From Desulfomonile tiedjei (lineage in GTDB: Bacteria > Desulfobacterota > Desulfomonilia > Desulfomonilales > Desulfomonilaceae), in assembly GCA_016218715.1 (NCBI GenBank), contig JACRDG010000054.1, positions 77,940-134,195 on the forward strand: a DNA stretch of 56,256 bases. Direction: 5' to 3'. Position 1 is the first letter of the stretch. Each line of letters opens with the position of its first letter. A program made the position numbers and the translations under genes. The notes under the pieces were generated by a model that had not been told where the DNA came from, did not search any database, and saw nothing but the letters and a program-made list of their open reading frames with translations. Of the stretch, positions 345 to 22,417 are shown piece by piece.

Positions 345-2060
345 ATGTGCCGTCACCTGATGGCCCGTGACAAACGCCGCTCATCAGGAGCCTCTGTAAT
401 AGGAGCTTGGAGGTTGTCTTTCGGCATGCGCGAATCCGAACTCCCAGGAACCGGCCGCAACGAAGGTGTGCTACCGGCGACTGCCCTACACCGACACACC
501 GACGCGTTCGCACCGTTGAGTCAGGCTCTGGATGGTTTTTCCACCTTTCAGCGAGGGCTGCTGATCGCTCTCGTGGCGCTCGCGGCATTCTGCCTCGTGA
601 TCAACAGCTCATGGACCGCAACACCTGACAGCGCCTTGTACCTCGCACTGGGAGAATCGCTGGCACGAGGCGATGGATATGTGTTCAACGGCGAGCTACA
701 TACCTTCGTGCCACCGGGTTATCCACTCCTGGTGAGTGCCGCGGCGCGCCTTCTCGGGCCGGATTTCTTAAGCTACCGTATTCTGATGGCGCTCATGGGA
801 GTAATGACTGCCTTCCTGGGGTACCTGCTCGTCCTGAGGCTTGCGGGGCCTGACGTGGCAGTCTTTGCAGGCGGGTTGTTTGTGCTCAACAGCACGCTTC
901 TCGAGAACTCGGCCATGACCCTGACCGACGTCCCCTTTGCGTTCTTTACGCTCGCGGCGTTGCATGTAGTGCTCTCAGCAACGCACGCAGAGCGGAAGAT
1001 TACCTGGACTGTTGCAGCTGCGCTGATTGCGGGCGTCCCCCCGCTTCTGCGGATCAACGGACCCGGCGTTCCCTTCGCCCTGGCATTCTCGCTATTTTGC
1101 GGCTGGCAGGGGGTCGAAGCGAAGCGGCGTTGGCTTCTCGTAGGCCTCTTTCTCCTCGTATCCTTGGCCCCTATTGCGGTCTGGGACTTGTGGAAATCGA
1201 CCTTCCCCGCCGGCTACGGCGAGGGGACGTACCTGGATGCGGTCAAGGGACGGAGTTTTTCCTACCAGATTTGGACGATTGTGGATGCGTTCTGGGGGTA
1301 TTTCGATGAGATGAACCTCGCGCTTACCGGGGTCCGCATCAAGACCGGTTTCCTGGAATTGATCGTCCCGCTGGTTGCCTTTGCAGGGATGGTGTCAGCC
1401 TGGCGGGGGGGAGACCGTCTCCTGGTCCCTCTGACGGCAACGCAGTTCTGCGGCCTTCTCCTGGCCCCCGCTGGCAGCCGGTACCTGATCTTTCTCCTTC
1501 CCGCTCTCTATCTCTTTCTGGGTCTGGGAATCCTGGATATCTGTCGGTGGCTTTCGCAACGAATCCAACGCCCCGTAATGGGGAGCACGGTGTTGCGGGT
1601 CGCTTTTGTGGTAATGGTTGTGCTCAACGTGGGTCACAATGTCAGGACCGTGGTCCAGGCTCGCTCGCCCCAGGAAGCCACCGGTGCGGAGACCCAACGG
1701 AGCCTGCCGTTCTTCGTCGCGGCCCGTTGGCTCAAGGCAAATGATCCCCAAGCTCAGGTGCTCACCACCCGATCCCGTATGATTCATTATCTTTCCGGCA
1801 ATCGAACGCTCCCGCTGCTCCGTTCAGGCGTACCCATCGCCGAAATGTGGGTGGAGGACAAAGCCGGCATCCGGGACCTGATGTCCAGGGGCAACGCGGA
1901 ATACCTCTTCTCGGACTACCGGGAGGCGGCCTTGTACGCCAAAGTAGAAGACGCGCTCAGAGGACTCGGTTACCGGCTCGAAGAGATCCCCGAGGCGAGT
2001 TCCCCGCCGCGATATCGACTCTTCCGGTTGATTGCTCCGGCCGAAGTTTCCGGCCCATAA
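345..2060 (+). CDS. ArnT/GT39-like polytopic membrane glycosyltransferase
   Basis: A 571-residue inner-membrane protein with a short soluble N-terminus followed by many hydrophobic segments from about residue 75 to 430 and a soluble C-terminal domain. The first periplasmic loop carries the acidic pattern typical of GT39/PMT-like enzymes (TPDSALYLALGESLARGDGY, then PPGYPLLVSAAA), which in that family binds a polyprenyl-phosphate-linked sugar and transfers it to an envelope acceptor. The ATG at 345 is chosen over the TTG at 318 because AAAGGAGG lies six bases upstream. The gene stands alone; no lipid A or polyprenyl-sugar gene is adjacent, so donor and acceptor cannot be named. The family call is good, the substrate unknown. 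Confidence 0.75.
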   Translation: MCRHLMARDKRRSSGASVIGAWRLSFGMRESELPGTGRNEGVLPATALHRHTDAFAPLSQALDGFSTFQRGLLIALVALAAFCLVINSSWTATPDSALYLALGESLARGDGYVFNGELHTFVPPGYPLLVSAAARLLGPDFLSYRILMALMGVMTAFLGYLLVLRLAGPDVAVFAGGLFVLNSTLLENSAMTLTDVPFAFFTLAALHVVLSATHAERKITWTVAAALIAGVPPLLRINGPGVPFALAFSLFCGWQGVEAKRRWLLVGLFLLVSLAPIAVWDLWKSTFPAGYGEGTYLDAVKGRSFSYQIWTIVDAFWGYFDEMNLALTGVRIKTGFLELIVPLVAFAGMVSAWRGGDRLLVPLTATQFCGLLLAPAGSRYLIFLLPALYLFLGLGILDICRWLSQRIQRPVMGSTVLRVAFVVMVVLNVGHNVRTVVQARSPQEATGAETQRSLPFFVAARWLKANDPQAQVLTTRSRMIHYLSGNRTLPLLRSGVPIAEMWVEDKAGIRDLMSRGNAEYLFSDYREAALYAKVEDALRGLGYRLEEIPEASSPPRYRLFRLIAPAEVSGP

Positions 2061-2172
2061 TCTTCGAGGACCGCTGCCGGCCTGAAGCCAGCCGTCGGGC
2101 AATTATGAGCCGAAAAATCTGGCGGGCGAGTCAGGAATCGTATGGCTCGGCCCCGCATCTAACAGTTAAGAT

Positions 2173-2186
2173 GTAACCGTTCACCG
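2173..2186. repeat. Solitary copy of a 14-bp repeat end
   Basis: GTAACCGTTCACCG at this site is the exact reverse complement of 2982-2995 and matches 2867-2880 with one mismatch. It may be a lone end of the small element described at 2867-2995. Confidence 0.4.
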
Positions 2187-2264
2187 GGACAAACGTAGTC
2201 CCTCGAAATGACGATGGGGGAACTACTACTTATGGGCGTTATATCTCATGAAAGGAGACAGCCC

Positions 2265-2525
2265 ATGGATTACGGGCTCATTTTAGCTCTGATCATTGTT
2301 GTGGCCGCAGTAGGAGGATTCCTGGTCTTGGCGCGCACCCTGTTCGATAATGTGAAGGCGGCATCGGAAGCCAAAGAGCAATGGAGAAGCTTCAGGGATA
2401 AGAAATGCAGAGAGTTTGAAGAGTGCTTTAATCAGTGCCTAAGAGTGGAGCCACGGGACCGGGACACGAGTGAGATATGCGCTTCCCGTTGCCGCTCAGA
2501 AGGCGATGCCCATGTTTGCGCGTGA
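2265..2525 (+). CDS. Small membrane-anchored twin-CX3C protein, unknown function
   Basis: An 86-residue protein with one N-terminal hydrophobic helix (about residues 3-23, MDYGLILALIIVV...) and a charged C-terminal part containing CFNQC and CASRC, plus flanking Cys residues. Paired CX3C motifs are a pattern known to form disulfide-stapled helical hairpins; that this one does is inference. The ATG at 2265 follows a good ribosome binding site (AAAGGAGA), whereas the longer frame start at 2208 has none. The N-terminal anchor would put the Cys-rich part in the periplasm if the topology is N-in. I do not recognise the family. Confidence 0.6.
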   Translation: MDYGLILALIIVVAAVGGFLVLARTLFDNVKAASEAKEQWRSFRDKKCREFEECFNQCLRVEPRDRDTSEICASRCRSEGDAHVCA

Positions 2526-5312: not shown

Positions 5313-5377
5313 TTATACCAAGTCGCTTTCAAAGCGGTAAGCTGGGGAGCTACTCTTTGGATTGCGGCCCGATGACC
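5313..5377. repeat. TIR element copy A (at the nadB 3' end)
   Basis: A short compressed copy of a family found five times here. Its left end (ATACCAAGTCGCTTTCAAAG) and its right end (CTACTCTTTGGATTGCGGCC) are degenerate inverted copies of each other around a CTGGGGAG core. The right end overlaps the 3' end of nadB on the minus strand and encodes its last residues QSKE and stop. Confidence 0.7.
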
Positions 5378-6981
5378 GGATTGCTGCGCACCAGAACCGT
5401 GTTTTGGGGCGGTCGCGTTGCATCCGGCTCCGGATAGTCGAGGGTGTAATGTAACCCCCTGCTTTCAGTTCGGGCCAATGCGGACCGGATGATTAAATCC
5501 GCCACCACCGCGAGATTACGCAGCTCCAGGAGGTCGGCTGTGACGCGAAACCGGCCGTAGTACTCGTCGATTTCCCGGAGCAGCATGTCCACGCGACGTT
5601 TGGCACGCTCCAGGCGCTTGGTAGTCCGCACGATCCCCACGTAGTCCCACATGAACTGGCGCAGCTCGTGCCAGTTATGGGAGACCACGACCTCCTCGTC
5701 CGAATCGGTGATTCCGGTCTCGTCCCAATCATGCACGTCGGAGGGCCCCGGCGTGCCGGGAAGCTCCCGCACGATGACCGCGGCCGCAGATGCAGAAATC
5801 ACGAGGCATTCGAGCAGTGAGTTGCTCGCGATGCGATTGGCCCCGTGCAGACCGGTACAGGCAACCTCGCCCACCGCGAACAGACCCTTCAAGCTCGTTC
5901 GACCGTTGAGATCTGTCATCACGCCGCCGCACGTGAAGTGCGCCGCGGGGACCACGGGAACAGGATCCTTGGTAAGATGGAAACCGAACTCCCGGCACCG
6001 CCGGTTCACGGTGGGGAAGTGTTTCCGTATAAAACTCGGCGACTTATGGCTTATATCCAGATATACGCAGTCTACGCCGAGGCGTTTCATTTCATGATCG
6101 ATCGCGCGGGCCACGATGTCGCGCGGGGCCAATTCCGCACGAGGATGGAACCTGTCCATGAACCGCGACCCGTCGGGCAGGCGCAGAACAGCCCCCTCAC
6201 CCCTTAAAGCCTCGGTCAAGAGAAACGACTTTGCCCGCGGATGGAAGAGGCACGTCGGATGGAACTGCGTGAATTCCATGTTCGCCACACGACAGCCTGC
6301 TCGCCAGGCCATGGCAATCCCATCGCCCGTGGCTACATCCGGGTTGCTCGTGTAGAGATATACTTTGCTGCAGCCTCCTGAAGCCAGCACTACCGCGCGC
6401 GCCAGGACCGTCTTCACGCGGTTCGATGCCTTGTCCAACACGTACGCTCCTATGCAGCCACTTGAGCGACCGGAGCCGCGCGGCTCGAGAATCAGGTCGA
6501 TGGCCATACAATTCTCGAACAACGTGATGTTTGACTGCGAAAGCGCCCGCTGAACCAGAGCGGTGGAGACGGCCTGGCCTGTGGAGTCGGCCGCGTGGAT
6601 CACTCGACGATGGCTGTGGCCCCCTTCTCGTGTCAGGTGGTACGCCCACTCTCCGTTGGGTCCTTCCTCTCGACTGAATTCCACGCCACTCTCGATGAGC
6701 TTCTGTATGGCATCGCGGCCGCGCTCGACCACGAACCGCACAGCCTCCCGGTCGCACAGCCCTGCACCCGATTCCAGGGTGTCGCGGATGTGTGATTCGA
6801 CCGAATCGGCGTCGTCCAGGACCGCCGCGATCCCCCCCTGAGCGTGGTAGGTGCAACTATCCTGAGCAGAACCCTTCGAGAGCACGGCCACCCGAGCGTG
6901 CGGGGCAACGTCCAGCGCGAGCCGCAACCCCGCTGCGCCGGTGCCTATGACGAGAACATCAAACATCAGCCTGTTTGTCAC
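5350..6981 (-). CDS. nadB: L-aspartate oxidase
   Basis: NadB oxidises L-aspartate to iminoaspartate, the substrate that NadA condenses with dihydroxyacetone phosphate to make quinolinate. The 543-residue protein shows the FAD dinucleotide motif GTGAAGL near the N-terminus, the AQGGIAAVL segment, [15 protein letters not shown] and [18 protein letters not shown], all typical of NadB rather than of fumarate reductase. A GTG start at 6981 is chosen because GGAGG lies seven bases upstream; the ATG at 6966 is the alternative. Either way it overlaps the end of nadC, so the two are translationally coupled. The last residues (QSKE) are encoded by a dispersed repeat element, so the native C-terminus may have been replaced. 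Confidence 0.96.
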
Positions 6982-7822
6982 CGAACTTCCTCCTCCAGTC
7001 GAGGCCGATATCGACCGCGGGGGCCGATTGCGTGATTCGTCCCACCGAGATGAAATCGACGCCTGTTTCTGCGATCTCACGAATGTTTTCCAGGTGGACC
7101 CCTCCGGAGGCTTCGGTCTGGGCGCGACCGCTGACGATCCGGACCGCGGCGCTCAGGGTTGGGATGTCCATGTTGTCCAGGAGCAGTCTGTCCGCTCCTG
7201 CATCAAGTGCTTCGGCAACCTGGTCCAGCGTTTCCACTTCGACCTCGATGGGTGACAGGCCTGCGGCTTTGACCCGCGCCACTGCTTCCCCGATCCCGCT
7301 GCAGACGGCGAGGTGGTTGTCTTTGATCAAGACCGCGGAATCGAGACGCAGGCGGTGGTTCTCTGCGCCGCCCATGCGGGTGGCGTACTTCGCGAGCATG
7401 CGCAGACCGGGAATGGTCTTGCGGGTGTCCAGGAGCACCGCGCCCGTTCCTGCGATCCGCTTCACGTACGCCCGCGTGAGCGTGGCAATCCCGGAGAGGT
7501 GCTGCACAACGTTCAGGGCTGTGCGTTCCGCGGTAAGCAGAGCCCTCGCGGGGCCGCTGATTCGGGCCAGCACGGTCCCTTCCGCGATGAGGTCACCGTC
7601 AGCTACCAGAGGTTCCAGAACAGCGGATCGATCCAGAGTGCCGAACACCTCCAGAGCGATGGGAAGGCCCGCAAGCACCATCTCTTCCCGTGCGGACATA
7701 ACCCCCTGGAAAATGGAATCTTCCGGGATGACCGCCTGCGAGGTGATGTCTCCGCTCCCTACATCTTCCGCGAGGGCCGATTCAATGAAACGCTGCACAG
7801 TGGCCTCGTGTATATCCATCAT
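6959..7822 (-). CDS. nadC: Nicotinate-nucleotide pyrophosphorylase (carboxylating)
   Basis: NadC converts quinolinate and PRPP to nicotinate mononucleotide, CO2 and pyrophosphate, the last dedicated step of de novo NAD synthesis before the common pathway. The 287-residue length is normal. Diagnostic segments are SGDITSQAV near the N-terminus, [55 protein letters not shown] and [10 protein letters not shown]. The start (ATG ATG) follows AAGGGG at good spacing. It lies between nadA (90 bp upstream) and nadB (overlapping) in one operon. Confidence 0.97.
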
Positions 7823-10169: not shown

Positions 10170-11032
10170 TCGGCTTTGACGTCATCATCGTCGGCGGAGG
10201 CCCGGCTGGACTGGCCGCGGGTGTTCAGGCCGGTCACATGGGCCTTACCGTCAAGATCCTGGAAAAAGATGTCTGGGGGGGCAGGTTGTGCCTGGCTCGG
10301 AGAGTGGAGAACTTTCCCGGTCTTACCCGGCCGCTCAGTGGCCGGCACGTTGCTGCGAGGTTGCTGCTGCAGGCGCGGCGCAAGACGCTCTCAATGGGAC
10401 TGGAGGCCTGCACGGCGATTGACTGCGTCGATCGGCGCTTCGCTGTGGAAACGAGAGTGAACCGGTACACGGCCAGAGCCGTCATCGTGGCTTGCGGTGT
10501 TCAGCCCAAGCGACTGTTGGTCCCGGGCCTCGGCGTGGACGGAAATCGACTGTTCTATGCATGGCGGGAGCTGCCTCACTTCCGAGGGAAACGGATTGGT
10601 GTCATCGGCGGTGGAGAGGCTGCTTTCGATCAAGCGTGCTCGCTCGCTGAACGGGGCGCTGCGGTCACGGTCCTGATCAGAGCCACTGAGCCCAGGGCGT
10701 TTCACGGACTGGTCCACGAAGCCCTGGAACTTGGGGTCTCCCTCGTGACCCGAGCGGAGATACGACAGGCTGAGATGAAAGGCGCGGCCGTGTCGCTGCA
10801 ATTCTCCGATGGAGGACGGCCGGCTTGTGACGTGGATTATCTTCTTGCCGCAGTGGGGGCAGAGGCCGTCGAAGTGACGATTTCGAAGGTCGCGGCCGGG
10901 AGAAACGGACAGGGGCTCTACTGGGCGGGGGACGTGTGCTCCGGAAGGTACCGGCAGGCTGCCATCGCGTCCGGTGACGGCATTAAGACTGCAATGATTG
11001 TGTACGACTATCTAAGAGGGGAAGAAGGGTAA
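10166..11032 (+). CDS. Thioredoxin-reductase-like flavoprotein lacking the CxxC
   Basis: A 288-residue pyridine-nucleotide-disulfide oxidoreductase-type flavoprotein with FAD motif VGGGPAGLAAG at the N-terminus, NAD(P) motif GVIGGGEAAFDQA in the middle and the C-terminal GLYWAGDVCSG FAD motif. It has the size and architecture of thioredoxin reductase, but the redox-active CxxC that should precede or sit in the NADPH domain is absent, so it is unlikely to reduce thioredoxin. It may instead reduce a ferredoxin or another small partner. ATG overlaps the upstream stop (ATGA) and its own stop overlaps the next ATG (TAATG), so the three genes form a tightly coupled unit. Confidence 0.83.
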   Translation: MIGFDVIIVGGGPAGLAAGVQAGHMGLTVKILEKDVWGGRLCLARRVENFPGLTRPLSGRHVAARLLLQARRKTLSMGLEACTAIDCVDRRFAVETRVNRYTARAVIVACGVQPKRLLVPGLGVDGNRLFYAWRELPHFRGKRIGVIGGGEAAFDQACSLAERGAAVTVLIRATEPRAFHGLVHEALELGVSLVTRAEIRQAEMKGAAVSLQFSDGGRPACDVDYLLAAVGAEAVEVTISKVAAGRNGQGLYWAGDVCSGRYRQAAIASGDGIKTAMIVYDYLRGEEG

Positions 11033-11934
11033 TGGAAATCTTGAGTCATACGGGAAGGCCTGATCTGGCGCAGATTTTCGTGGCAAAAATGCGAGACAAT
11101 GCGGACTTCATGGTGGAATTCGTCGATGCGTGCGACCCCACGGTGGGAGATCGCCGCCGGAAATGGGTGATCGTCATCTCGACCCAGTTCGGTTGTCCCG
11201 TGAAATGCCTTATGTGTGATGCGGGCGGCGCGTTCAAAGGGAATCTGACCTTTCAGGAGATCAGCTCCCAGGTCGAAACCGTCGTCGCGGCGCACGGAGA
11301 CATCGACCCGGGTCAGTGCGATAAGTTAAAGATTCAGTTCGCGAGGATGGGTGAACCCTCGCTCAATGATGCAGTCCTGGAAGTACTGGCCTGGCTCAAG
11401 GATTTTTGTCCCACTGTGATCCCGTGCATCGCCACCATCACTCCGGCCGGTCGCGAGGCGTGGTTCGCCGAGTTGTTGAAGATCCGGGATTGTTTCCGCG
11501 ATTTTCAGCTTCAACTCTCCGTGAACTCCACGGACGACGCATACAGGGACAAGCTCATGCCGTATCCTAAGATGTCATGGGAATGGATGGCGGAGTACGG
11601 CCGGGAGTTCCATCGCAAGGGCCAACGCACGGTTTGTCTCAATTTTGCCCTCTCGCCGGAGATCCCCGTGAGCGCAGCAGCGACTCGTGAGTACTTCGAC
11701 CCGGAGCACTTCGTGGTTAAGCTGACGCCATTGAACCCCACTACTACCGCGGAGGAAAACGGTATGTCTCCGGCAGACAACCGGGCAGATGCCGAGTGCA
11801 GAGTGGCCTGCAAAGCAGAGGAGTTTCTGCGACTCGGGTTCTCCGTGATAGAATCGATCGGGGATATGGAGGAAAACCTCATCGGAAGCAACTGCGGGCA
11901 GGCGGTGAGAAAACTGCGGCTTGCCTCATGGTGA
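11032..11934 (+). CDS. RlmN/Cfr-like radical SAM protein, atypical
   Basis: A 300-residue radical SAM protein with the cluster motif CPVKCLMC (Cys55, Cys59, Cys62) and a region after it (GGAFKGNLTFQEISSQVE) that resembles RlmN/Cfr, which methylate adenosine in 23S rRNA. The C-terminal Cys of that family is kept (Cys288 in SNCGQAV). However, the second catalytic Cys of RlmN, seven residues before the first cluster Cys, is replaced by Val48, and the N-terminal RNA-binding domain is very short. It is therefore unlikely to be the housekeeping RlmN. It starts on TAATG with the preceding flavoprotein, which might supply electrons (inference). Confidence 0.75.
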   Translation: MEILSHTGRPDLAQIFVAKMRDNADFMVEFVDACDPTVGDRRRKWVIVISTQFGCPVKCLMCDAGGAFKGNLTFQEISSQVETVVAAHGDIDPGQCDKLKIQFARMGEPSLNDAVLEVLAWLKDFCPTVIPCIATITPAGREAWFAELLKIRDCFRDFQLQLSVNSTDDAYRDKLMPYPKMSWEWMAEYGREFHRKGQRTVCLNFALSPEIPVSAAATREYFDPEHFVVKLTPLNPTTTAEENGMSPADNRADAECRVACKAEEFLRLGFSVIESIGDMEENLIGSNCGQAVRKLRLASW

Positions 11935-12051: not shown

Positions 12052-13467
12052 TTACAGAGAAGTAATTTCCAGGGCGGTCGAGGTAGCGGAATCCCAGCCG
12101 TCCCAGAGAAAAGCGCTTTCCTTGCCGTCCGCGATGAGCCTCAGTGCATAGCGCACCTGCTCCTCATACAGCTCGCAGAAGGCGCCGGTTCTGTTCATCC
12201 CTCCGTTCATCTCATATGCCTCAGCTGGGCAGGGCGAGCCGCAGAAATGCCGCACCGCGCAGGAGGAGCAGGGAATTATGTCCTCGACCTTCCTCCCCGT
12301 GACCGCCTTGAAGGCCTCGCTCTTCAAGACGTCGCCTATGGGGTCGCGAAAGAGATTCCCGCCGTTGAATTCGGGGACTCCCACAAACTCGCTGCATGGG
12401 AAGAGATCGCCCCTCGCTCCCACCGCGAAGAAACACCTTCCGCCTCCACACGGTGAAATGTCACACATGAGACGCCGAGCCGAGGGTGCGGCGATGCTGA
12501 TAAGCACATTGGCGAAATTCGCGATGACCAGCTGGCGTCCTGTTTCCTGGTACAACTCGTAGGTCCTGTCAAGGGCCTTGAGGTAATGGACTGAGAGATC
12601 CTCATCCGCTGGTCTGATCTCCCTTGCGCCTTGTCTGGTGCATCTCACCGGGTTGAGCATGCCTATGGGAACTTCCATCTCGTGCAGGAATTCCACCATG
12701 TTGCTGAGCGCGGTCATATTGCGCGTCGTCACCGTGCAGATCACATTGTAGTTCGGATACCCCTTGAATCTTTCGAGGAGGGCCGCGCTCCTGCGAAAGA
12801 ATCCCTGACCGGCCCAGTTTTTTCTCGTCGCGTCCGCGATAGCCTCCTCGTGTCCGTCGAGGGAGAGCCCGACACCGATCCCGCGCGAGGTGAGGAAGTC
12901 AATGGCCTCGTCGTCCAACAAGGTGCCATTGGTCTGGATGCCGAAATGGAAATCGTCCCGAAAGCGCTCGATCCCTGCGAAAACCGCATCGCGGGCCAGC
13001 ATCGGCTCAGACCCGTGGAATACCACTTGCGGGAGGCGCCCCTCGGGCATGGTCTTGCCGAAGTAATCCTTCAGGATGCCCAGCGCCGCGATCAGTTGGT
13101 CCTCGGACATGTGAACGCCGTCCCGTCTCATTTCTTCCGGGATATAGCAATAGGAGCAATTCAGATTGCAGCGTTCCGTGGGGTTGAAGTAAACCGCGGA
13201 GGGCTGTAGGCCGAAGCGAAGAACCTCCATCTCTCGGGCGAAGGCGTCACGTTTCTTGCGGAACTCTTGCATGAGCACGCCGCTATCGTTCAGCGCATCG
13301 CCGATCTTGTCTCGTTTCACCAGAGACCAGAAGGCGGTGTCCGGATCGAGGAGAGCGACGTAGTTTTCGTGTGCGATGTCGATCAGTTGAACCGTGGGTC
13401 CGTTGCCGGTATTGCAGTAGCGGCCGCGCGAGGGGGCCGAGTTGTGCACCTCTTTCATCATTTCCAT
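12052..13467 (-). CDS. cbpB: Radical SAM/SPASM peptide maturase, CbpB-like
   Basis: A 471-residue radical SAM enzyme with cluster motif CNLNCSYC (Cys100, 104, 107) and a complete C-terminal SPASM domain (CDISPC...C...C, then CSSCAVRHFCGSPCPAE and a last Cys) that would bind two auxiliary Fe-S clusters. This layout is typical of enzymes that cross-link or otherwise modify small peptides (RiPP maturases) and of sulfatase maturases. No sulfatase is nearby; instead a 29-residue peptide gene lies 261 bp upstream on the same strand and both follow a cobalamin riboswitch. I recall an NCBIfam pair, precursor CbpA and maturase CbpB, that fits this arrangement, but could not check it. The ATG at 13467 has AGGAG eight bases upstream. 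The chemistry on the peptide is unknown. Confidence 0.82.
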   Translation of the reverse strand: MEMMKEVHNSAPSRGRYCNTGNGPTVQLIDIAHENYVALLDPDTAFWSLVKRDKIGDALNDSGVLMQEFRKKRDAFAREMEVLRFGLQPSAVYFNPTERCNLNCSYCYIPEEMRRDGVHMSEDQLIAALGILKDYFGKTMPEGRLPQVVFHGSEPMLARDAVFAGIERFRDDFHFGIQTNGTLLDDEAIDFLTSRGIGVGLSLDGHEEAIADATRKNWAGQGFFRRSAALLERFKGYPNYNVICTVTTRNMTALSNMVEFLHEMEVPIGMLNPVRCTRQGAREIRPADEDLSVHYLKALDRTYELYQETGRQLVIANFANVLISIAAPSARRLMCDISPCGGGRCFFAVGARGDLFPCSEFVGVPEFNGGNLFRDPIGDVLKSEAFKAVTGRKVEDIIPCSSCAVRHFCGSPCPAEAYEMNGGMNRTGAFCELYEEQVRYALRLIADGKESAFLWDGWDSATSTALEITSL

Positions 13468-13683
13468 GGGTCTGGCTCCTGACGGCTATTTAGCAGTTGC
13501 CAAGGATAATGTCCGATTGGTTCGCCGCGGACCTGGGGGCTCCCTCACTTCGGACAACGCAGGGCCGTCAAACCTTCGTTCGGGAGCCGCCAGGTCGGCG
13601 GGGCGAAGCGGTCAGAAATCCTGGCATCTATTGAAAATCGTTGGCATGAAACGCTCGGTGAAACGCTTCCGCAGCACAATTGA

Positions 13684-13716
13684 GGCGGGGGCATCGCCAT
13701 GCGAATCACCCCCGCC
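13684..13716 (-). other. Strong hairpin just downstream of the peptide gene
   Basis: GGCGGGGG pairs with CCCCCGCC across a small inner TCGC/GCGA stem, beginning 12 bases after the cbpA-like stop. There is no T run, so it is more likely an RNA-stability or partial-attenuation element that would raise peptide transcript over maturase transcript (inference). Confidence 0.55.
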
Positions 13717-13728
13717 GCGATAACCGAG

Positions 13729-13818
13729 CTAGTTCGCGTTGGGGACGACGAGGATGTAATGGGACAATCCGGTGCCGTCGGCCGTACAGGTCTTGCGATA
13801 CGCTATAACGTCCTTCAC
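13729..13818 (-). CDS. cbpA: 29-residue RiPP precursor peptide, CbpA-like
   Basis: A GTG-started frame of 29 codons that is too short for ORF callers. It begins MKDVIAYRKTC, continues TADGTGLSHY, ILVVPNAN and ends in TAG. A near-perfect Shine-Dalgarno AAAGGAGGTGA lies seven bases before the GTG, far stronger than expected by chance. It is on the strand and just upstream of the radical SAM/SPASM gene, and both sit downstream of the cobalamin riboswitch and its terminator. It has a single Cys (Cys11), so a disulfide is impossible within one peptide, and Cys11, Tyr, Ser, His and Asp are candidate modification sites. The similarity to the CbpA precursor family is from memory and not verified. Confidence 0.85.
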   Translation of the reverse strand: MKDVIAYRKTCTADGTGLSHYILVVPNAN

Positions 13819-13825
13819 TGTTGCG

Positions 13826-13836
13826 TCACCTCCTTT
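13826..13836 (-). promoter_or_regulatory. Strong ribosome binding site of the peptide gene
   Basis: AAAGGAGGTGA, complementary to nearly the whole anti-SD tail of 16S rRNA, seven bases upstream of GTG 13818. It decides the start of the peptide gene. Confidence 0.85.
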
Positions 13837-13899
13837 CAAGGAACGTTGGGGCCATTCCACCTTTGTGCGCGGCCGCGCCGGTTGCGGGCTTCAGGGCAA

Positions 13900-13933
13900 T
13901 AAAAAAGCCCTGGCACCCAAAGGTGCAGGGCTT
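13900..13933 (-). terminator. Intrinsic terminator of the riboswitch
   Basis: On the minus strand AAGCCCTG-CACC pairs with GGTG-C-CAGGGCTT (12 bp with one bulged C) and is followed by six T in a row. It lies between the aptamer and the peptide gene, the place of an expression platform, so cobalamin binding is expected to favour termination and switch the peptide/maturase genes off. Confidence 0.85.
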
Positions 13934-13954
13934 ACTTTTGCCATCAGAGCAACC

Positions 13955-14125
13955 CCAGTCTAAACGCCCGTCTTCTGGCTTCCGGGTTATCCTCCACCCG
14001 CCCTTCCCATCCGGTTGGAACCGAACAGTGGATATGCGGGGATTGTAACCGGTTACAGCGGCGGGACCGCCACGGATTCACACCGTGTTCCGATAGCGTC
14101 CAGACTTTCCAGGCACTATTTAACG
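13955..14125 (-). ncRNA. Cobalamin (B12) riboswitch
   Basis: Read on the minus strand the region contains the conserved elements in order: a GTGCCT start, GGAACACGGTGTGAATCCG, then GCGGTCCCGCCGCTGTAACC (the classic GCGG-CCCGC-ACTGTAA core), a GATGGGAAGG stem region and the B12-box-like GAAGCCAGAAGACGGGCG. This combination is diagnostic of the adenosyl-/hydroxo-cobalamin aptamer. It is followed by an intrinsic terminator and then by the cbpA-like and cbpB-like genes. None of these genes is a known B12 transport or synthesis gene, which makes the linkage notable. Confidence 0.93.
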
Positions 14126-14147
14126 CGAACCGGCCCTACGCTGTCAA
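14118..14147 (-). promoter_or_regulatory. Candidate sigma-70 promoter for the riboswitch
   Basis: TTGACA (14147-14142) and TTAAAT (14123-14118) with an 18-bp spacer. The predicted start falls very close to the first conserved aptamer bases, which is tight, so a slightly different promoter is possible. Confidence 0.45.

Positions 14148-20494: not shown

Positions 20495-22417
<1,923 letters not shown>

Follow-up and report, generated by a model that had tools for sequence, protein, structure and literature searches.

The window analysed here, a stretch of 56,256 nucleotides from Desulfomonile tiedjei (assembly GCA_016218715.1, contig JACRDG010000054.1, positions 77,940 to 134,195 of the forward strand), encodes on its minus strand a 29-residue precursor peptide, CbpA, and a radical S-adenosylmethionine (SAM)/SPASM maturase, CbpB, downstream of a cobalamin riboswitch. 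The pair is a well-supported instance of a named family and not a new kind of system; what is new is the genomic context, and the most useful new fact is that cbpAB is tied, in many phyla, to steps common to cobamide synthesis and salvage. We tentatively read the genes as a cobamide-regulon unit for a ribosomally synthesized and post-translationally modified peptide (RiPP), in which CbpB would crosslink CbpA at Cys11 and the product, whose function we infer, would serve corrinoid assembly or salvage within the cell. The question narrows to which step, among those that de novo makers share with salvagers, requires such a peptide.

Organization of the cbpAB unit

The features of the unit are as follows.

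13948-14136, minus strand: cobalamin riboswitch aptamer (RF00174; cmscan, 85.6 bits, E 9.7e-20)
13931-13901, minus strand: intrinsic terminator in the expression platform of the riboswitch (GCCCTGCACC...GGTGCCAGGGC followed by T6; from sequence and alignment)
13826-13836, minus strand: Shine-Dalgarno sequence of cbpA, AAAGGAGGTGA (from sequence; GGAGGTGA shared by the window and all five aligned relatives)
13729-13818, minus strand: cbpA, GTG start, 29-residue precursor peptide MKDVIAYRKTCTADGTGLSHYILVVPNAN (TIGR04164 match)
12052-13467, minus strand: cbpB, 471-residue radical SAM/SPASM peptide maturase (TIGR04163, Pfam, fold)

The cobalamin riboswitch, drawn at 13955-14125 (minus) in the initial annotation, was recovered in an Infernal check as a full-length match (model positions 1-189), with 85.6 bits against a gathering threshold of 31.5; it is the sole Rfam match above gathering in the whole window, and one of three RF00174 matches in its own genome (G000:C8:91887-92075). 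The intrinsic terminator that had been claimed after it also stands: hairpin and T-run align in the window and all five relatives compared (six of six sequences), and at the foot of the stem both partners change together from G-C to A-T. The terminator is accepted because it is conserved in the relatives, and not because of the terminator scan, which alone was no better than chance (two found versus 1.5 expected in shuffles). The leader RNA fold was unremarkable (z -1.84). Aptamer, terminator, Shine-Dalgarno sequence and cbpA frame all co-align between the window and the five relatives.

This layout fits production of CbpA and CbpB at low cobalamin: at high corrinoid the riboswitch would let the terminator form, leaving cbpAB off, and at low corrinoid cbpA and cbpB would be transcribed.

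The cbpA frame opens with GTG at 13818 and closes with a stop codon at 13731-13729; cbpB begins 261 bases further on. The window peptide matches NCBIfam TIGR04164 (modified peptide precursor CbpA, cobo_pep) with 50.4 bits against a cut-off of 35, and the enzyme matches TIGR04163 (peptide-modifying radical SAM enzyme CbpB, rSAM_cobopep) with 723.3 bits against 375, in addition to Pfam Radical_SAM and SPASM. The names CbpA and CbpB, which the initial annotation gave, were right, as were its GTG-started 29-codon peptide with a near-perfect Shine-Dalgarno sequence, borne out by the sequence, the family match and the conserved frame, and its radical SAM/SPASM maturase. No tested feature sets the pair apart from the family.

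Conservation of CbpA

All six aligned sequences have a start codon at this position, be it GTG, ATG or TTG. Differences at codon positions 1, 2 and 3 of cbpA amount to 26, 8 and 127 (summed over 15 pairs), with 118 synonymous versus 30 non-synonymous codon differences. This third-position bias indicates that the frame is translated and that purifying selection acts at the amino-acid level.

A genome_contigs scan of 84,980 species genomes (tblastn, E up to 1e-3) returned 421 stretches encoding a CbpB relative, the best 80 of which constitute the named loci (L061-L140). A second set, L004-L039, holds the top matches from searches of the window's phylum and family. CbpB exceeded its cut-off in 36 of the 395 phylum genomes and in none of 14 control genomes, and in the family it did so in 9 of 18. 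The studied loci number 116, of which ten are in both sets, leaving 106 distinct loci. A CbpA frame was found in 101 of these (100 by iterated profile, and L092 by pattern search), and in the remaining five (L039, L064, L080, L123 and L126) the DNA ahead of cbpB is no longer than 161 bases or the cbpB start is missing. The 29-codon frame is conserved beside homologous maturases across genomes, so that neither of the two outcomes named beforehand in the initial annotation as refuting it, the lack of a cobalamin-model match and the lack of this conservation, occurred.

The sole cysteine of the window peptide, Cys11, already singled out in the initial annotation, falls in a column that is Cys in all 97 distinct relatives. 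Gly17, Leu18 and His20 (window numbering) are likewise fixed in 97 of 97 peptides, Arg8 is present in all 96 that have that column, Ser19 is Ser in 95 of 97, and position 21 is either Tyr (91) or Phe (6). The position three past the Cys varies (Asp 23, Lys 16, Asn 13, Glu 11 of 97). The Lys-rich ends of most relatives are missing in the window form, and the conserved stretch VIAYRKTC...GLSHYIL is for that reason taken as the part that counts. TIGR04164 was matched by all 40 peptides chosen from the 97. No signal-like N-terminus was seen by eye in the 29-residue form.

CbpB and its closest relatives

The CbpB alignment contained the window and 69 of a set of 78 sequences from the 80 best matches, the set omitting L064 (length) and L129 (stop). 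In all 70 sequences the radical SAM cysteines C100, C104 and C107 (CxxxCxxC) are unvarying, as are the SPASM cysteines C358, C400, C403, C409, C413 and C431. The 69 rows are 59-78% identical to the window enzyme, which is high for enzymes of different phyla. In a quick, unrefined tree of 79 CbpB rows, 34 changes were counted for 14 phylum labels (taken from submitters' titles), which suggests transfer.

The AlphaFold2 model of CbpB (mean pLDDT 86.1, pTM 0.88) is closest to CteB, a SCIFF maturase (Foldseek E 4.6e-21; Z 33.5, rmsd 3.6, 382 residues, 24% identity), followed by anaerobic sulfatase maturase, ChlB and TigE, and CteB is also the best solved relative by sequence profile (5wgg, E 1.6e-34). 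Residues 23-447 of the whole model align with CteB 1-448, and this alignment suggests a RiPP recognition element in the modelled N-terminus. CbpB is not named in the available text of two papers on that element.

CbpB is like the ranthipeptide maturases of the CteB/SCIFF (thermocellin) type in its best fold match, its radical SAM and SPASM domains and its Cys-bearing substrate. According to the accessible part of one account, CteB forms a Cys-Thr thioether and its structure has an N-terminal recognition element (PMC8172795). Unlike a SCIFF maturase, however, CbpB falls under the TIGR03974 cut-off (109.9 versus 425 bits), the window CbpA has one Cys whereas SCIFF has six in 45 residues, and the pair belongs to a B12 regulon. 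Thioether-forming maturases of the PapB/QhpD type are among the next-best NCBIfam relatives. The same source, as far as it is available, gives PapB a Cys-X3-Asp rule (PMC8172795), whereas in CbpA the position three past the Cys is variable. CbpB also lies under the cut-offs for PapB (NF047865; 132.9 versus 340 bits) and for the quinohemoprotein amine dehydrogenase maturation protein (108.8 versus 453 bits), and further NCBIfam relatives, DynA (128.2 bits) and anaerobic sulfatase maturase (112.5 bits), are far below theirs. PqqA and PqqE represent another short conserved precursor with its radical SAM/SPASM enzyme. PqqE is a weaker fold match to CbpB (Z 19.8) and the peptide core differs, so that the likeness to PqqA would be at most one of working; PqqD, PqqC and PqqF were not among the named neighbours of cbpAB, although no search was aimed at them.

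Judging from its relatives CteB, PapB and QhpD and from the invariance of the residues concerned, CbpB would most likely join Cys11 through a thioether to one residue within the G-L-S-H-[YF] stretch.

The literature searched (subscription papers thinly covered, bioRxiv not included) held no described product or function for the CbpA/CbpB family, in line with the initial annotation, and no paper on a cobalamin riboswitch with a RiPP, SPASM or radical SAM pair was among the matches listed. Background on such switches is given, in the portions available, by a riboswitch regulon survey of 2013 (PMC3766115) and a cobalamin riboswitch study of 2022 (PMC9600662).

The riboswitch at other cbpAB loci

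A locus covariance model was built from 26 riboswitches (14 from L004-L033 and 12 from named loci), which match by construction, including 12 of the 53 near loci given below. One riboswitch match each was found in 31 of the 36 loci L004-L039; of the other five, three (L037-L039) are truncated, and two, L008 and L009, which coincide with L067 and L073, sit among cob genes. Informative named loci numbered 71 of 80; L061, L064, L080, L081, L092, L105, L123, L124 and L126 were set aside for short upstream DNA or a CbpA not yet found (that of L092 came from the pattern search). The riboswitch precedes cbpA by 500 nt or less in 53 of the 71 and by 3 to 9.3 kb in four, and is missing from the locus DNA in 14. 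Cobamide genes are nearby in 16 of the 18 informative loci without a riboswitch within 500 nt. The neighbour tally took 52 loci as near, with L075, near in the riboswitch count, placed among the rest. The Rfam model itself was applied to 20 loci, chiefly those in which the match was weak or absent. Anywhere in the genome, an RF00174 match (E up to 0.001) was present in 77 of 80 CbpB genomes (38 of 40 and 39 of 40).

Two further arrangements were observed. At L098, L102, L108 and L125, cobalamin riboswitches occur as head-to-head pairs about 105-130 bases apart, one facing cbpAB and the other a cob operon on the opposite strand. At L087, tandem cobalamin riboswitches (5360-5551 and 7380-7571; 125.2 and 127.4 bits) flank cbpAB, and the second precedes CobU and a TonB receptor.

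Gene neighbourhoods of cbpAB

In the flanks of the 80 named loci, 16 cobamide or cobalt genes were identified by blastp, with a single named protein standing for each. At least one of these was present in the flanks of 35 loci, and at least two in 27. The neighbours, as named by NCBIfam via representatives, were CobQ/CobD, CobT, CbiB, CobS, CbiA, CobA, CobU, CobC, CbiC, CbiD and CbiL, with CbiE, CbiJ, CbiF, CbiH, CbiM, CbiQ, CbiO, BtuF, BtuC and a TonB receptor in addition. In several loci the pair lies within cob/cbi operons (e.g., CobA-CbiA-CbiC-cbpA-cbpB-CbiX-CbiM in L073), and in L099, L100, L106 and L134 cobT is directly downstream of cbpB.

Twenty-one neighbour clusters, named from one or a few tested members each, were found in at least 5 of the 80 loci: CbpB itself, open reading frames (ORFs) mostly antisense to CbpB, an AsnB-like ORF, and otherwise clusters whose tested members were cobamide genes, cobalt genes or corrinoid-uptake genes. 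No exporter, peptidase or protease, or second enzyme was a constant partner among these clusters; one broad ABC-ATPase cluster, present in 21 loci, takes its name from a single member and could conceal an exporter ATPase.

Salvage-type operons were found in L082, L086, L097, L113, L119, L126, L131 and L137, mostly Omnitrophota by title and all in genomes without a CbiD match. They carry varying subsets of CobU, CobT, CobS, CbiB, CobD, the AsnB-like ORF and cbpAB, together with a DUF71 (PF01902) ORF, an activase-like radical SAM ORF, BtuF, BtuC, an ATPase and a TonB receptor. The AsnB-like ORF of L082 and L113 matches the later part of the AsnB profile only. The activase-like small radical SAM ORF stands beside cbpAB in L082, L086 and L119, and DUF71 in L082 and L113. 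Proteins of the latter family were tied to B12 salvage earlier, 75 of 102 adjoining B12 transporter genes, in a report whose main text, as available, does not mention radical SAM (PMC3541065).

Distribution among genomes

The phylum set consisted of 390 genomes, taken as G000-G389, in which CobS and CbiD matches were counted to an E value of 0.001; with the curated cut-offs the totals are 242 and 191 of 390, respectively. CobS was present in all 34 CbpB genomes versus 258 of 356 others (Fisher p 4.4e-5), and CbiD in 33 of 34 versus 160 of 356 (p 3.7e-10), both p values being uncorrected for kinship. The CbpB genomes G390 and G392 were left out; the worst case would be CobS in 34 and CbiD in 33 of 36. 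The single CbpB genome without CbiD is G005, which is 79% complete. The 34 genomes are spread over 12 families, and in family f29 one genome, G326, alone has CobS or CbiD and alone has CbpB.

Fifty further CbpB genomes were hand-picked from the 80 named loci, nearly all of them metagenome-assembled genomes (MAGs). CobS was found in 45 and CbiD in 30, with CobS in 17 of the 20 that lack CbiD, eight of these 20 being the salvage-type loci above. The presence of CobS in the CbiD-less genomes argues against ring synthesis or cobalt insertion as the step concerned and favours one common to synthesis and salvage.

The genome of the window has a cbi operon (CobQ-CobD, CbiB, CbiA, CbiC, CbiD) and CobS, with CbiM-CbiQ-CbiO behind another cobalamin riboswitch.

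Possible role of the CbpA product

The initial annotation had proposed that the product scavenges or replaces B12 or signals its lack. This agrees only in part with the data. Replacement finds little support, since the window's genome encodes a cbi operon along with CobS and CbiM-CbiQ-CbiO, and since most CbpB genomes carry CobS; a dedicated secreted scavenger is disfavoured, because no exporter or protease is among the clusters of at least 5 of 80 loci. An intracellular role in corrinoid synthesis or salvage fits better. The near-fixed CbpA core and its maturase indicate one conserved task, nearer that of a cofactor or chaperone than of an antibiotic. The CbpA product would be little trimmed or not at all and would probably be kept in the cytosol, serving steps that cobamide assembly and corrinoid salvage have in common: late assembly, corrinoid handling, redox or adenosylation. 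To judge from which genomes have cbpAB, cobalt insertion is disfavoured as its step. Our guess is that the invariant His of CbpA, plus the Cys if free, would bind cobalt in corrinoids that are incomplete or base-off. In its boldest form, which we regard as rather unlikely, the proposal makes CbpA the precursor of the first RiPP acting in B12 metabolism, a crosslinked Cys/His peptide produced solely under corrinoid shortage, binding or reducing incomplete corrinoids in late assembly and salvage, and spread as an accessory through at least ten phyla. If the peptide does act on corrinoids, a near-complete pathway would have a hidden ribosomally made part.

Several findings weigh against such a role. 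None of the tested neighbours of the window's own unit is a cobamide gene, and L066 and L138 have neither a riboswitch nor cobamide genes in the locus DNA. CobS went unmatched in 5 of the 50 picked genomes (nearly all MAGs). CbiD and CobS occur without CbpB in the same-family genomes G102 and G386, and CbiD in 160 of 356 CbpB-free genomes; since such genomes exist, cbpAB must be accessory and not essential. Conservation is overstated here, because only the best 80 of the 421 matches make up the named loci. The N-terminal domain of CbpB taken alone gave no significant match to a recognition element (top Foldseek row TbiB1, a leader-peptide-binding protein, E 0.28; CteB E 0.79), and scored Z 2.9 against CteB, under unrelated rows at Z 4.0.

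Cobalt uptake or insertion as a general role was rejected in view of the eight salvage-type operons in CbiD-less genomes (MAGs, and perhaps incomplete).

Alternatively, as the precursor of a peptide-derived redox cofactor (as PqqA is for pyrroloquinoline quinone), CbpA could supply electrons for the reduction of Co(II) to Co(I), act at another step, or serve lower-ligand activation by CobT. A cofactor would predict just such a near-fixed core and conserved maturase across phyla, and the operons with CobA in several loci, the position directly upstream of CobT in L099, L100, L106 and L134, and the invariant His and Tyr/Phe (97 of 97 each) agree with it; yet the common neighbour clusters hold no protease or extra maturation enzyme, Phe replaces Tyr in 6 of 97 peptides, which speaks against a Tyr-quinone, and no one cobamide gene is a constant neighbour. 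We judge this cofactor unlikely. Less probable still is a secreted 'phore', that is, a modified peptide that binds corrinoid or cobalt outside the cell and is re-imported by TonB/BtuFCD or cobalt transporters. Its low-corrinoid expression layout would suit it, BtuF, BtuC or TonB receptor genes lie near cbpAB in L082, L097, L113 and L126, and CbiM, CbiQ, CbiO or NicO genes near it in other loci; the other two riboswitches of the window's genome precede CbiM-CbiQ-CbiO and two ORFs that are outer-membrane-like by eye. The peptide, however, shows no signal-like start, and the exporter or peptidase that secretion calls for is missing from the clusters of at least 5 of 80 loci, the ABC-ATPase cluster being the one place where an exporter could hide.

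A peptide antibiotic or signal whose expression merely tracks B12 status appears improbable. SPASM maturases do sometimes make antimicrobials, ruminococcin C being an example in the available text of PMC6779426, but the CbpA core is near-fixed across phyla, many copies lie inside cobamide operons, and no immunity or export genes are found in the common neighbour clusters. The 29-codon frame could also be thought a leader ORF or attenuator of cbpB instead of its substrate, situated as it is between the riboswitch and cbpB, 261 bases ahead of the latter. Its third-position bias, the conservation of its amino acids across phyla with invariant Cys and His, and the SPASM maturase fold of the neighbouring product are at odds with this, and we rejected a leader ORF alone on codon-position bias and invariant residues; it retains hardly any likelihood.

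Other features of the window and its genome

A further cobalamin riboswitch of the genome (L001 1501-1683; G000:C43:30439-30621) precedes two large ORFs of 580 and 620 codons (L142 5848-10354), outer-membrane-like by eye and unmatched in Pfam and NCBIfam under the thresholds applied, which possibly represent a new corrinoid or cobalt porin. Divergent from this riboswitch is an extremely His-rich small ORF (L001 about 2028-2285, plus strand, by eye), possibly a metal-binding protein. Within the window, a 300-residue radical SAM ORF (11032-11934, plus strand) is convergent with cbpB; it is weakly RlmN/Cfr-like and, at 40.4 bits, so far under the cut-off of 290 that it is not a standard RlmN. A 617-codon ORF at 20564-22417 (plus strand) includes an extended tract of Thr-Gly and related repeats.

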